Assembly: GCF_900166585.1 (NCBI RefSeq)
Contig: NZ_FVZC01000007.1
Location: 124,001-188,000, forward strand
Direction of reading: 5' to 3'
DNA: 64,000 nucleotides
From: Mesobacillus jeotgali
GTDB taxonomy: Bacteria > Bacillota > Bacilli > Bacillales > Cytobacillaceae
Part shown: in pieces, positions 7,499-19,092 of the stretch
Layout of the letters: each line of letters opens with the position of its first letter
Numbering within the stretch: the first letter of the stretch is position 1
Notes under the pieces: generated by a model
The model's database searches: none
Seen by the model: the letters and a program-made list of their open reading frames with translations, nothing else
What the model was told of the DNA's origin: nothing
Translations under genes and position numbers: made by a program

Positions 7499-7536
7499 AA
7501 GAGACGGTTCTCATGAAATATGAGAGCCGTCTTCTT
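7499..7536. terminator. Bidirectional terminator between DUF1456 gene and cysteine dioxygenase gene
   Basis: GAGACGGTTCTCAT / ATGAGAGCCGTCTT stem with a 5-base loop. It overlaps the last codons of the convergent dioxygenase gene. Confidence 0.8.
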
Positions 7537-8089
7537 GTTTGGCAAGCCGAATTTCTTTGACCTTCTGATAGGTTTCCTCTGGCCACCATGCTCCGCAGTC
7601 ATCGGAGACGATACAGGCGGCACACTTTTCAAAATCGTAGACCTTCATCCCGCTGATGGGCGGGGAATAAAGGTGGAGAGTGACGAGTCCCGCTTCGCCA
7701 TCTGCCTGCATTTTATGAATCCCTTTCCGTGGAGCGTAGAAGTCTTTTCCCTGATGGTGAAACTCCTTAAACAGCTCTTTGGGCAGGCTGTTGCCATTGA
7801 CTTCGTAAACTGAATTAACAGATGTCCCACCGAGAACCAGGATCCAGCCATGGGAATCACCATGATCGTGTGGAGCGCATTCTAAATCTGACCAGTTCAT
7901 CACCAGAAGCTCGACATCCTCGCTTTTGTACAAAAGTTTACGAAAATAAGGCTTTCCAGAAGCAGATTTAAGTTCTGGCTTTAAATTTGCAACGGTCATG
8001 TTGAGCTTGCCGAGGGCCTCTTTCATCTCGGTTTTTGATGGAGCTTTAAGCGAATCCAATATTCTTTTGGCCTGAGGATTTAAAGTCAT
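7511..8089 (-). CDS. Cysteine dioxygenase family protein
   Basis: 192 residues counted from the ATG at 8089, chosen because AGGAGGAAGG precedes it; an earlier in-frame ATG (8110) overlaps the stop of the upstream gene. The cupin fold carries APHDHGDSHGW (His74, His76) and His125 in APRKGIHKM, the 3-His iron site of thiol dioxygenases. The enzyme oxidises L-cysteine (or a related thiol) to the sulfinate with O2 in the cytosol. Cys171/174 near CAACIVSDDCG are unusual extra cysteines. It is coupled to an EamA exporter gene immediately upstream, which could export cysteine or its product; this link is inferred. Confidence 0.85.
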   Translation of the reverse strand: MTLNPQAKRILDSLKAPSKTEMKEALGKLNMTVANLKPELKSASGKPYFRKLLYKSEDVELLVMNWSDLECAPHDHGDSHGWILVLGGTSVNSVYEVNGNSLPKELFKEFHHQGKDFYAPRKGIHKMQADGEAGLVTLHLYSPPISGMKVYDFEKCAACIVSDDCGAWWPEETYQKVKEIRLAKQEDGSHIS

Positions 8090-8106
8090 ACAACCTTCCT
8101 CCTGAT

Positions 8107-9033
8107 TCATGGTGATTTTTTTAGGAAAAAGCGCAAAAGCATGGGAACTAGACCACCGTTTACAATTATCACTCCTATTATGATTATGATTCCGCCTATA
8201 GCACTTATGAGGATGAATTTTTCATGTAAAAGAATAATGGCGAAAATCAGGGTGACCAAAGGCTCGAGATATAAGAAAATGGATACCTTTGAAGCATCTA
8301 ATACTTCCAGTGCTTTTCCCCAATACCAATATCCAATTCCAGACACGAATATAGCAAGGAACAGAAGATTTGCCCATTCTGTTTGTGACAGTAAGGGCAG
8401 GGACTCCCAGCCTCTGTTCCGGATTAAAAAAGGGAGAGTGAGTACGAAGCCGGTTAAGCTCATGTAAAATGTTACGACAACAGCAGGGTAAGGAATGCGC
8501 ATTTTTTTTAAAAGGATGGAATAGACTGCCCAGTTCAGCGTACTCAGGATCATCAGAATGAAGCCGATGTTCATGGAGAACTCAAAGGAGTGGCCGCTTC
8601 GAGTGGTAGTGACCATAAAGACTCCGGTTACCGCAATAAGCATTCCGGCTGCTTTTTTCACATTCATCTTTTCATGCAAAAATAGACCTGAGAGGATGAC
8701 AGTGAAAATAGGAGAAAATGAAATCAGCCAGCCGGCAGAAGAGGCAGAAATCGTTAACAAGGCCGTCGCCTGCAGCACTTGATGGACGAAGATACCCAGT
8801 ATTCCGAGGACAACAAGATGAGGGATATACCCAATTGAAATACGGAGCCGTGAGCCCTGGAGCATTAATATCATCAATAAAAACAAAGCCCCTAAACCAA
8901 AGCGGAACACCAATATGGAATAGGGATCGAGCTTATCAAGCAGGGCTTTTGCAGAAACAAAGGAAACTCCCCAGAAGCTGATCGATAAAAGTGCGTAAAG
9001 CGAAGCGGTAAGCTTGGAACGAAACGGAACCAT
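8107..9033 (-). CDS. EamA/DMT family transporter
   Basis: 308 residues, ten predicted membrane segments arranged as two EamA repeats (about residues 10-140 and 153-293), starting at an ATG. Typical DMT signatures are FWGVSFVSAKALL at the N-terminus and a Glu in the second repeat (FLYLEPLVTLIFA). Such carriers export amino acids or metabolites. It overlaps or abuts the cysteine dioxygenase gene, so they form an operon; the substrate is unknown. Confidence 0.88.
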   Translation of the reverse strand: MVPFRSKLTASLYALLSISFWGVSFVSAKALLDKLDPYSILVFRFGLGALFLLMILMLQGSRLRISIGYIPHLVVLGILGIFVHQVLQATALLTISASSAGWLISFSPIFTVILSGLFLHEKMNVKKAAGMLIAVTGVFMVTTTRSGHSFEFSMNIGFILMILSTLNWAVYSILLKKMRIPYPAVVVTFYMSLTGFVLTLPFLIRNRGWESLPLLSQTEWANLLFLAIFVSGIGYWYWGKALEVLDASKVSIFLYLEPLVTLIFAIILLHEKFILISAIGGIIIIIGVIIVNGGLVPMLLRFFLKKSP

Positions 9034-12017: not shown

Positions 12018-12058
12018 ACAGATATTAGGTAAAAGTATGAAAAAGGCAGGTGAGAATC

Positions 12059-12547
12059 ATGAGTGTATTTGCGGTGAATGGGAAGGTCGACAAGGGGAAA
12101 TTGGTGAAGGAGTTATTGATTCCTGTTGTTGGCGGAATGGTGACGGGGATGATTGCGACGAGGAATGCGAAGGAGAAGTACAGGAAGCTGAAGCAACCGG
12201 AGTTTGCACCGCCTTCATGGGTGTTTCCGGTGGTGTGGACGGGTCTGTATGCGACGATGGGACTGGCGAATTATCGGGTTTCGATGAAAAAGAAGCCAAC
12301 TGCAGCGGCGGAGGCTCTTTATGATATCCAGCTTGGGTTAAACTTTCTCTGGTCGTTCTTATTTTTCAAATGGAACCTGCGGGGGACTGCTTTTGCGGAG
12401 ATCGGCCTGCTCCTGGGTATGATTACGTTAACAACTTATCAATATTATCAAAAAGATAAAGTTGCTGGCAGGCTGATGCTGCCTTATATCGCATGGGTGT
12501 CATATGCGCTCCGGCTCAATTACAGCATGTGGAAGTTAAATAACTGA
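12059..12547 (+). CDS. tspO: TspO/MBR family membrane protein
   Basis: 162 residues, five hydrophobic helices, with the family signatures KQPEFAPPSWVFPVVWTGLY and NFLWSFLFF. The ATG at 12059 has AGGTGAG upstream. TspO binds tetrapyrroles and in bacteria is tied to porphyrin or stress handling. The N-terminus (VNGKVDKGKLVKE) is slightly longer than in the shortest homologues. Codon use is GC-rich early, which produces a long shadow frame. No partner genes follow. Confidence 0.92.
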   Translation: MSVFAVNGKVDKGKLVKELLIPVVGGMVTGMIATRNAKEKYRKLKQPEFAPPSWVFPVVWTGLYATMGLANYRVSMKKKPTAAAEALYDIQLGLNFLWSFLFFKWNLRGTAFAEIGLLLGMITLTTYQYYQKDKVAGRLMLPYIAWVSYALRLNYSMWKLNN

Positions 12548-12703: not shown

Positions 12704-12811
12704 ATGAAACAAATCACTGAATTTATGAATGAAGAAGGTTTTGAGCTGAAGGGTTATGTTTCTCAATTATTTGAACAAGCTTCTGAAAAAGAAGACAAGA
12801 AAAAACGCTGA
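12704..12811 (+). CDS. Small protein, 35 aa, unknown
   Basis: MKQITEFMNEEGFELKGYVS... ends in a Lys/Arg-rich tail. The ATG is preceded by CGGAGGTAG at good distance, and the stop lies in the stem of a strong terminator, so this is a genuine compact transcription unit. No relative recognised. Confidence 0.6.
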   Translation: MKQITEFMNEEGFELKGYVSQLFEQASEKEDKKKR

Positions 12812-12837
12812 TCGCAGCAGGCTGATCAGCGTTTTTT
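12800..12837. terminator. Strong bidirectional terminator
   Basis: AACGCTGATC / GATCAGCGTT perfect stem flanked by A and T runs; it serves the 35-aa gene and the convergent redoxin gene. Confidence 0.85.
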
Positions 12838-13374
12838 CATTTGCTCCAATACGTCATCAATTTTTGCGTGGTCCTCTGGTGATTCATCGATATGCTTCCA
12901 CAAGAGTTCTCCTTCGGCTGAATAGAGCCATGTTCCTCCCTGGATGTAAACGTCCTGTGTTTTCATCGATTTCAATACAAATTCTTTCTGCTTTTCCTCT
13001 TTAGGGATAAAGTCTTTGACCTGTCCAGTAATGAATCTAATTCCGGCTTTCGTTAGCAGCTTCCATTTAGGCATCGTTTTATGGCCCATGCCACGGTATG
13101 CTTCCCTTGAAGGATCGCCGAGGATCGGGAAAGGGAATGGCCCGAAATGGTCAATGAACTGCTTTATAAATGTTCCTTTGGACGGGGCCACAGCAATAAC
13201 CTGGTAGCCTGTCGCTTCTACTTCATTTATTCGCTCACGCAACTGCGTGAGATATGCCCGGCAAACGGGTCAGCCAAGGTGGCGGACGAAAACGGCCATT
13301 GTCGGCTTTCCCTGGATGGCTGTTTCCAAACTGATCGTTTTTTCTGGATCGGTTGTTTCCAATACAAAGTTCAT
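12826..13374 (-). CDS. Candidate selenoprotein: peroxiredoxin-like (AhpC-TSA_2/SelU-like) with in-frame UGA
   Basis: The frame from the ATG at 13374 (AGGAGGG 7 bases upstream) is open for 182 codons except one TGA at 13270-13272, codon 35. Readthrough gives FVRHLG-U-PVCRAYLTQL, i.e. UxxC exactly where thioredoxin-fold PRX-like proteins have their CxxC/UxxC site. The downstream part (IAVAPSKGTF, FPFPILGDPSREAYRGMG, YIQGGTWLYSAEGELLWKHI) is intact AhpC-TSA_2 sequence. A perfect 7-bp hairpin with loop AGUU begins 18 nt after the UGA, in the position of a bacterial SECIS. A standard gene finder would call only the active-site-free stump from 13242. Probably a cytosolic thiol oxidoreductase. Alternative: a Cys-to-stop mutation, judged less likely. 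Confidence 0.8.
13234..13251 (-). promoter_or_regulatory. SECIS-like hairpin downstream of in-frame UGA
   Basis: On the mRNA strand CUCACGCAGUUGCGUGAG forms a 7-bp stem with tetraloop AGUU containing the G (and GU) typical of SelB-binding bacterial SECIS loops. The loop is about 25 nt after the UGA. Confidence 0.65.
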
Positions 13375-13446
13375 CTTGAGCCCTCCTTTGTTCCACTATA
13401 TTAAACTCTGCTCTTTAAAGAAAGAGTTAATGTTCTTTAACAATCC

Positions 13447-13542: not shown

Positions 13543-14514
13543 ATGAAGAGTTTTAAAAAGTTAGCGATGTTTACCATGCTTGCGTCTGTAATGGCCTTTG
13601 GGACTGCTTGTTCAGATGGAGAGAGCAATGCGGAAGCGAAGAATGGCTCTAATGGAAATGAAACTCAACTTGAAGGCAGCGTCGTGATTGACGGTTCTGG
13701 CACGGTCTACCCATTCATGGCAAAAATGGCTGAGAACTATATGGGCAAGCAGGAAGATGTATCTGTGGAAGTAAGCCGCTCAGGGACTTCTGCTGGTTTC
13801 AAGAAATTCCTTGTTGAAGACGGTACGGACTACAATGATGCTTCACGCCAGATCAAAGACGAAGAAAAGGCAAAAGCTGAAGAGCTTGGCATCGATGTGA
13901 AAGAAATGAAGGTCGCTTTGGATGGCTTGACGATCGTCATCAATAAAGAAAATGACTGGGCGAAGGACCTGACAAAAGAAGAAATCGTCGACATCTTCCT
14001 GGCTGAAGGCGGCAAGAAGAAATGGTCTGATGTACGCCCTGAATTCCCGGATGAGCCAATCAACACATATGGACCAAATGAAAACCATGGCACCTACGAA
14101 TTCATGTTTGAAAACATTTTAGAAGAAAAAGATCTGGTTGAAGGCATCAACCTGCAGCAGGACTACTCCACACTGGTTGACCTTGTTTCCAAGGATAAAA
14201 ACGGGATCGGCTTTTTCGGATATGGCTACTATGCGAACAACAAAGATAAATTGGCTGCAGTGAATGTGGATTTCGGAAATGGGCCTGTTGAACCGTCACT
14301 ATCAACAATTAAAGAAGATGGAGATTACGCACCGTTCACACGCCCTGTATTCACATACTTGAACGTAAACAAAGCCAAGGAGAAGGCAGAGGTACTTGAC
14401 TACGCAATGTATACGATGAAAAATGCACAGGAAGTTGCTGCTGAAACTGGCTTCGCTCCATTGACTGATGATGATATCCAGGCGACATTAGCTGAACTGG
14501 AAAAATTGAAATAG
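13543..14514 (+). CDS. pstS: Phosphate ABC transporter substrate-binding lipoprotein PstS
   Basis: 323 residues, ATG after TAGGGGGAATTAAGG. The signal peptide ends in FGTAC (lipid-modified Cys23). Phosphate-binding loops are visible: DGSGTVYPFMAKMAE (about 50-64) and SRSGTSAGFKKF (about 83-94). The mature protein scavenges inorganic phosphate at the outer face of the membrane for PstCAB. No pst permease genes follow; the gene ends at a terminator, so it is a single-gene unit here. Just after the stop, 27-30 bases of its own 3' end (GCTGAATTGGAAAAATTGAA) are repeated. Confidence 0.93.
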   Translation: MKSFKKLAMFTMLASVMAFGTACSDGESNAEAKNGSNGNETQLEGSVVIDGSGTVYPFMAKMAENYMGKQEDVSVEVSRSGTSAGFKKFLVEDGTDYNDASRQIKDEEKAKAEELGIDVKEMKVALDGLTIVINKENDWAKDLTKEEIVDIFLAEGGKKKWSDVRPEFPDEPINTYGPNENHGTYEFMFENILEEKDLVEGINLQQDYSTLVDLVSKDKNGIGFFGYGYYANNKDKLAAVNVDFGNGPVEPSLSTIKEDGDYAPFTRPVFTYLNVNKAKEKAEVLDYAMYTMKNAQEVAAETGFAPLTDDDIQATLAELEKLK

Positions 14515-18429: not shown

Positions 18430-18486
18430 ACAGGGTTTGCAGACCAGCTCTTTGTGGAACACATACAAATAAAGGAGGCGGATAAA

Positions 18487-19092
18487 ATGGTTAAATTAGC
18501 AGTCATCTTTTATAGTATGAGTGGAACGAATGTGCAGCTTTCGAAATGGGCCGAAGAAGGCGCGAAAGAGGCAGGAGCAGAGGTCAAAGTCTTTAAGGTA
18601 AAAGAATTGGCTCCTGAATCAGCAATCGAAGGCAATGAAGCATGGAAAGCAACCGTTGAAGCGACAAAGGACATTCCTGAAGTAACGCCAGACGATCTGG
18701 AGTGGGCAGATGCCATCATCTTCAGTGTCCCGACACGTTTCGGAAACATGCCATCTCAAATGAAGCAATTCCTTGATACGACAGGCGGTCTGTGGGCCCA
18801 GGGCAAGCTGGTCAACAAGGTAGTGAGCGCAATGTCCTCTGCACAGAACCCGCATGGCGGACAAGAGGCAACCATCCTCTCCCTTTACACAACGATGTAT
18901 CACTGGGGAGCGATTGTCGCTGCGCCAGGTTATACCGATCCAGTGACATTCGGAGCTGGCGGAAATCCTTATGGCACTAGCGTAACCGTCGACCAGGACG
19001 GCAATATGGTCGAGGATGTGGAAGCAGCGGTAAAACATCAGGCGAAGCGCACGGTGACCGTTGCCGGATGGGTGAAAAACGGAAATCAATAA
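18487..19092 (+). CDS. wrbA: NAD(P)H:quinone oxidoreductase, WrbA type
   Basis: 201 residues; the ATG at 18487 has AAAGGAGGCGG 5 bases upstream, and the longer frame lacks a site. Flavodoxin-like fold with the FMN phosphate loop SMSGTNVQLSKW (about residues 9-20) and SVPTRFGNMPSQMKQFLD plus SAQNPHGGQE around the isoalloxazine. It carries out two-electron reduction of quinones to hydroquinones, avoiding semiquinone radicals. It lies 57 bp after the dioxygenase, so the pair reduces and then cleaves quinones. Confidence 0.93.
   Translation: MVKLAVIFYSMSGTNVQLSKWAEEGAKEAGAEVKVFKVKELAPESAIEGNEAWKATVEATKDIPEVTPDDLEWADAIIFSVPTRFGNMPSQMKQFLDTTGGLWAQGKLVNKVVSAMSSAQNPHGGQEATILSLYTTMYHWGAIVAAPGYTDPVTFGAGGNPYGTSVTVDQDGNMVEDVEAAVKHQAKRTVTVAGWVKNGNQ

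Follow-up and report, generated by a model that had tools for sequence, protein, structure and literature searches.

How does the cell treat a TGA that stands 35 codons into an otherwise open gene? This is the question raised by a minus-strand frame in the window, that is, the whole stretch of 64,000 nucleotides of Mesobacillus jeotgali DNA that was analysed. The codon may end a short, broken gene, or it may be read as a residue. In our judgement, the gene almost certainly encodes a selenoprotein of the SelU/PRXL2 group, in which SelB and a hairpin would direct selenocysteine (Sec) to UGA35. The features concerned, with the basis of each call, are as follows.

12826..13374, minus strand: predicted complete selenoprotein gene, 182 aa with Sec35, PRXL2/SelU-like, AhpC-TSA_2 (sequence, relatives, dN/dS)
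13375..13390, minus strand: ribosome-binding site region AAAGGAGGG / CAAAGGAGGGCTCAAG, ahead of ATG 13374 (sequence directly)
13270..13272, minus strand: UGA codon 35, predicted to be read as Sec, first position of UxxC (TGA in 86/86 sequences)
13261..13263, minus strand: codon of Cys38, the presumed resolving cysteine (TGC in 52 and TGT in 9 of 61 distinct genes)
13240..13242, minus strand: TTG (Leu45), which a table-11 ORF caller takes as the start of a 138-aa fragment (ORF finding, sequence)
13234..13251, minus strand: bacterial SECIS hairpin, 7-bp stem, loop AGUU (codon invariance, covariation, consensus fold)
12800..12830, minus strand: intrinsic terminator-like site, overlapping the stop codon (terminator scan, sequence)

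The interrupted frame and its conservation

From ATG 13374, the frame runs for 182 codons with TGA codon 35 as its sole interruption. The motif around it is RHLG-U-PVC, and 147 sense codons follow before the TGA stop at 12826-12828. The first-pass annotation had described this frame, the AGGAGG ahead of its ATG and a CxxC motif that begins with the UGA (U-P-V-C), and all of these are borne out by the sequence. It had also expected standard annotation to give an active-site-less fragment from 13242; a table-11 ORF finder run on the window indeed yields only the 138-aa fragment beginning at TTG 13242, ahead of which no ribosome-binding site is visible on inspection of the sequence. The terminator-like stem occupies 12819-12806, with two such sites found in the region against 0.8 expected. 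A simple scan of the region for sigma-70-like promoters found none against 1.5 expected.

The claim that both sides of the UGA are coding holds as well, given the open frames in 86/86 sequences and the purifying selection on either side. For codons 1-34, dN/dS is 0.06-0.25 in seven of eight pairs, the remaining pair being saturated; after the UGA, it is 0.05-0.10 in six of eight pairs, with two saturated. The stretch ahead of the UGA is protein-coding and under purifying selection.

The codon aligned to residue 35, which the same annotation had wished to see compared among homologues, is TGA in 86/86 sequences (the window gene plus 26, 30, 20 and 9 loci from overlapping sets). These represent 61 distinct genes with identity down to 37%, and each TGA is followed by 144-155 open codons. 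In the collection of named genomes, 26 of the 27 loci span the site, with TGA in 26/26, and L043 retains remnants only. Among 193 genomes of the same family, 89 have some match at E<=0.001. At E<=1e-58 there are 50 matches, each from a different genome, and a TGA lies inside every one of them; two also hold a TAA or TAG, located after 144-145 open codons. We read the weaker same-family matches as remnants and other redoxins. A search of 398 genomes of the class (Bacilli) gave 12 matches at E<=1e-10, three of them shared with the same-family set, with TGA in 12/12. No Cys occurs at the site among the same-family matches at E<=1e-58 or the class-wide matches at E<=1e-10.

A phylum-level profile search of 398 genomes, in which Cys homologues may have been missed because at most eight candidates were scored per genome, gave five matches at E<=1e-12: the own genome, one congener, two genomes outside the class in which TGA copies stand in tandem, and one genome whose motif has TGC. 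The Cys forms seen at the site are P0014 (a database protein of unknown host), L142 (the TGC, outside the class) and Cys44 of human prostamide/prostaglandin F (PGF) synthase. The tandem gene pairs of L140 and L141 (same phylum, outside the class) have a UGA in each gene, with a hairpin around CAGUUGCG. One L141 copy reads UxxG in place of UxxC, so the second Cys is not universal in these outside-class pairs.

The gene is dispensable, as a strong match is absent from 143 of the 193 same-family genomes and the gene is partly deleted in some. In L101 and L102 (genomes G075 and G074), about 43 C-terminal codons are left, at an unchanged position flanked by the TspO and PstS genes; L103, L104 and L043 are other remnants from which the UGA region is gone. 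None of these five partial-deletion loci has a residue-35 codon left to show Cys. The following window neighbours were considered, and none of them has a clear link to the selenoprotein.

12050-12547: TspO/MBR
13543-14514: PstS-type phosphate-binding protein
7511-8110: weak cysteine dioxygenase match (28.7 bits, cut-off 23)
18454-19092: WrbA-type quinone oxidoreductase

In a comparison of 11 window neighbours against 46 loci, each with a flank of at most 2-3 kb, matches were found in L017-L024, along with a PstS fragment in L033. The genomic context offers no functional hint, since the remaining 37 of the 46 loci share no neighbour within this distance.

A search of 5.8 billion proteins returned 86 relatives with the single sequence and 142 with the profile. 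Among 120 of these 142, all but five full-length proteins cover 58-79% of the query, and the 10 short ones inspected all start past the UGA. Many database entries named ‘peroxiredoxin-like’ are therefore without their active-site end owing to annotation. A conserved selenium protein is easily overlooked in this way, because automatic annotation tends to remove precisely that end. Of the five full-length relatives, P0014, a metagenome protein of 53% identity, has Cys at the site, and P0007, P0009, P0013 and P0088 have Trp. The latter four are metagenome predictions on contigs of less than 2 kb, so the Trp is probably a code-4 gene call of TGA.

The hairpin and the selenocysteine apparatus

In PMC1088965, a bacterial SECIS is recognized as a hairpin just downstream of the UGA with a G in a small apical loop. 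The window hairpin agrees with this description in its placement and its loop AGUU, and it is also conserved and covarying. CTCACGC-AGTT-GCGTGAG pairs perfectly over 7 bp and begins 18 nt past TGA codon 35, just as the first-pass annotation had reported.

Evidence for selection on this hairpin comes from codon usage. In the 61 distinct genes, codon 44 is CAG and codon 45 is TTG without exception (61/61 each), codon 46 is only CGT or CGC, and codon 47 is GAG in 55 of the 56 genes with Glu. Most other conserved residues, including Leu, Gln and Arg, use several codons. Upon synonymous recoding of the window’s 20 codons, a stem of at least 7 bp with GT in the loop arose in 0.67% of 20,000 trials; among the real genes, 56/61 reach a stem of 7 with a GT loop, against a mean null of about 1.2%.

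Covariation points the same way. Stem pairing holds in 98.8% of the cells of a 58-row alignment, and the covariation score exceeds 500/500 shuffles, which ignore kinship, in both this and a 27-row alignment; in the former, it is also above all slid versions. Within the 58 rows, two-sided change is seen in one of the seven stem pairs and four pairs are invariant, and 69/500 shuffles equal the real stem by number of two-sided pairs. In the 27-row alignment, which has four rows from outside the class, three of the seven pairs show two-sided changes (2/500 shuffles). By number of pair types, shuffles do as well in 495/500 (58 rows) and 228/500 (27 rows). As related sequences can exceed shuffles even without structure, it is codon invariance and covariation jointly that carry the case, and the consensus fold of the alignment supports the hairpin too. 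The hairpin is under RNA-level selection. Taken as a whole, the 91-nt region folds no better than its shuffles (z -0.46; 63/200 at least as stable); the case therefore relies on where the hairpin sits and on how well it is conserved, rather than on the stability of the region. No Rfam family matched. A covariance model of the hairpin, for which 150 of 1510 candidates in the genome were scored, revealed no second gene; its four next-best matches (E 0.157 to 8.5) were rejected, their frames being too short for genes.

Profile searches of the assembly (4.63 Mb, 9 contigs) found selB (363.6 bits, cut-off 242.25), selA (560.3, cut-off 267.9), selD (399.2, cut-off 125), which itself carries one in-frame TGA, and tRNA-Sec (56.1, gathering 47), which ARAGORN calls tRNA-SeC with anticodon tca. 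Among 14 control genomes, the same cut-offs are passed by selB in two, selA in one, selD in two and tRNA-Sec in five; the tRNA score alone would be weak for this last reason. The genome is equipped with the Sec apparatus. A lack of selB/selC, with TGC or TGT and further decay in close relatives, had been named beforehand as what would speak against a selenoprotein, and the searches found all four components above their curated cut-offs and TGA throughout the relatives.

The gene also follows the apparatus across the family. Of the 172 same-family genomes whose selA exceeds the cut-off, 50 carry it, against 0/21 of the others (Fisher p 0.0025, kinship ignored), two of these 21 being only 80-81% complete. 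The remark that selenoproteins are uncommon in Bacillaceae did not stand, as selA, a proxy for Sec use, is over its cut-off in 172/193 same-family genomes.

All five UGA genes examined in this genome, the window gene and four others, have GU in the apical loop of their hairpins, which in the others are placed differently from that of the window gene. Two of the others are formate dehydrogenase-like genes with an in-frame TGA (L138, at C8:149452-152256, and L139, at C9:1601721-1603742). One scores above the family cut-off and the other is matched in pieces below it; both have a loop GGUCU at bases 22-26, counted from the U of the UGA. A second selenoprotein candidate lies on contig C9 from about 787463 (L100:1964-3295, plus strand). 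Its UGA (L100:2096) falls in an AhpC-TSA redoxin domain (residues 8-134) with the motif U-P-N-C and is followed by the hairpin CAGCUG-GUC-CAGCUG, and the redoxin is fused to a methyl-accepting chemotaxis signalling domain (256-397; only this genome’s own copy was scanned for it). The redoxin part has matches in 15/193 same-family genomes at E<=1e-20: 12 with TGA, in two of which the frame is just 160-180 aa, one partial with TAG, and two without a stop. The candidate is possibly a selenium-based redox chemoreceptor.

How the UGA may be read

If the UGA were a plain stop in a nonsense-mutated pseudogene, a fragment would be made, if anything. Such a reading could draw on the database relatives, which are mostly fragments of the part past the UGA, and on the five loci that retain remnants only. 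However, the identical TGA with its long open continuation in every one of the 86 sequences, and the purifying selection on codons 1-34 wherever it could be computed, are not what a decaying gene would leave, and the conserved TTG ‘start’, devoid of a visible ribosome-binding site, is explained by the hairpin. We therefore consider a pseudogene next to impossible. The invariance of TTG45 (61/61) is also what would favour a truncation switch, wherein the full protein is made with selenium and, without it, a functional 34-aa peptide or the 138-aa form from TTG 13242. As the TTG sits in the loop and stem of the hairpin, this invariance is already explained; moreover, the missing ribosome-binding site tells against it, and the shorter form would be without the active site. 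Such a switch is very improbable.

The UGA might instead be read as another residue without any selenium, for example as Trp by a near-cognate or suppressor tRNA, and the four full-length proteins with Trp at the site could be cited in favour. Those, however, probably reflect the code-4 gene calls mentioned above, and the site aligns with the active-site Cys of PGF synthase and is Cys in P0014 and L142. Since the hairpin and the co-occurrence with selA fit Sec, readthrough with a different residue is highly unlikely.

For the selenoprotein, we infer Sec insertion in this strain and a redox cycle, together with its substrate and reductant, along the following lines. SelB carrying Sec-tRNA(UCA) would bind the hairpin at 13234-13251, whereby the ribosome would read UGA35 as selenocysteine and produce a protein of 182 aa with a peroxiredoxin fold, belonging to the SelU/PRXL2 (AhpC-TSA_2) group. 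The attack is most likely made by Sec35, which lies just ahead of helix 36-47. This residue would reduce a peroxide, endoperoxide or disulfide substrate, a Sec35-Cys38 selenylsulfide would form, and a thioredoxin-type reductant would reset the pair.

Fold, family and known selenoproteins

The protein matches Pfam PF13911 (AhpC-TSA_2; 56.5 bits, cut-off 27) over residues 44-165, after the UGA, and also PF00578 (51.4 bits, cut-off 26). In the predicted structure (pLDDT 90.4), U35 immediately precedes helix 36-47. Among solved structures, the top sequence-profile match is human PGF synthase (E 9.1e-9, profile 10-178), followed by a thiol peroxidase (3.3e-5). PGF synthase (PDB 9us9 and 9usa) is also at Foldseek rank 1 (E 1.8e-9), and its active-site Cys44/Cys47 align with U35/C38; the identity is only about 15-19%. 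Its VIA-align Z of 17.9 is matched by many peroxiredoxins (about 17-18), which means that similarity of fold by itself does not single it out.

Classical peroxiredoxins have the catalytic motif PxxxT/SxxC. This is absent here, the aligned positions being R31, U35 and C38 (against 2cx3). The predicted Sec stands at the first CxxC position, which differs from where classical peroxiredoxins carry the peroxidatic Cys, and judging from the alignment, a classical peroxidase activity would not be implied. What places the protein with SelU/PRXL2 is the peroxiredoxin-like fold, a (U/C)xxC that precedes the first long helix, and the sequence relation to a PRXL2 member. Animal SelU depends on a eukaryotic SECIS, and prostanoid substrates are, to our knowledge, not expected in Bacillaceae. 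PMC3473315 equates prostamide/PGF synthase with SelU3, and with that enzyme as the top profile match, the earlier label ‘SelU-like’ appears supported and fair as homology.

The strong matches in the same-family and class-wide searches all have the UGA, and P0014 is the only close Cys form seen. It is conceivable, though rather doubtful, that this is a bacterial SelU/PRXL2 branch with Sec nearly fixed, in which the selenol may serve a reaction for which thiols are poorly suited, such as the reduction of lipid (endo)peroxides. P0014 may well originate in the same class, which makes the near-fixed reading less likely. If true, such a branch would be easily missed by screens for Cys/TGA pairs and shortened in annotation. 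As Cys versions are so rare, the gene lends itself well to the question of why Sec has been retained.

SelL itself has UxxU. The SelL-related redox protein family NF040769 is the best NCBIfam match (22/22 members of alignment A2 at E<=0.001), with the window protein at 92.2 bits, under the curated cut-off of 120. A table in the 2022 review PMC9312934 holds an AhpC/TSA family selenoprotein of pfam13911 with UxxS; compared by description, it has the same Pfam domain and Sec at the first motif position, and the window gene differs in its UxxC. PMC9312934 and PMC2398784 describe Prx-like thiol:disulfide oxidoreductase selenoproteins of pfam00578, with which the gene shares UxxC in a peroxiredoxin-type protein. 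Unlike in those entries, PF13911 scores slightly above PF00578 here; as they are set apart by description only, the gene could belong among them. In PMC1794560, Bacillales are listed with three selenoproteins in three families. No description of a UxxC AhpC-TSA_2 selenoprotein in Bacillaceae was found in the open literature, supplements and most subscription papers being outside this scope. The present gene would extend the selenoproteins of spore-forming Bacillaceae by a UxxC AhpC-TSA_2 subfamily, and it could provide a bacterial model for the SelU family, of which SelU1 has a function called unclear in PMC3473315.
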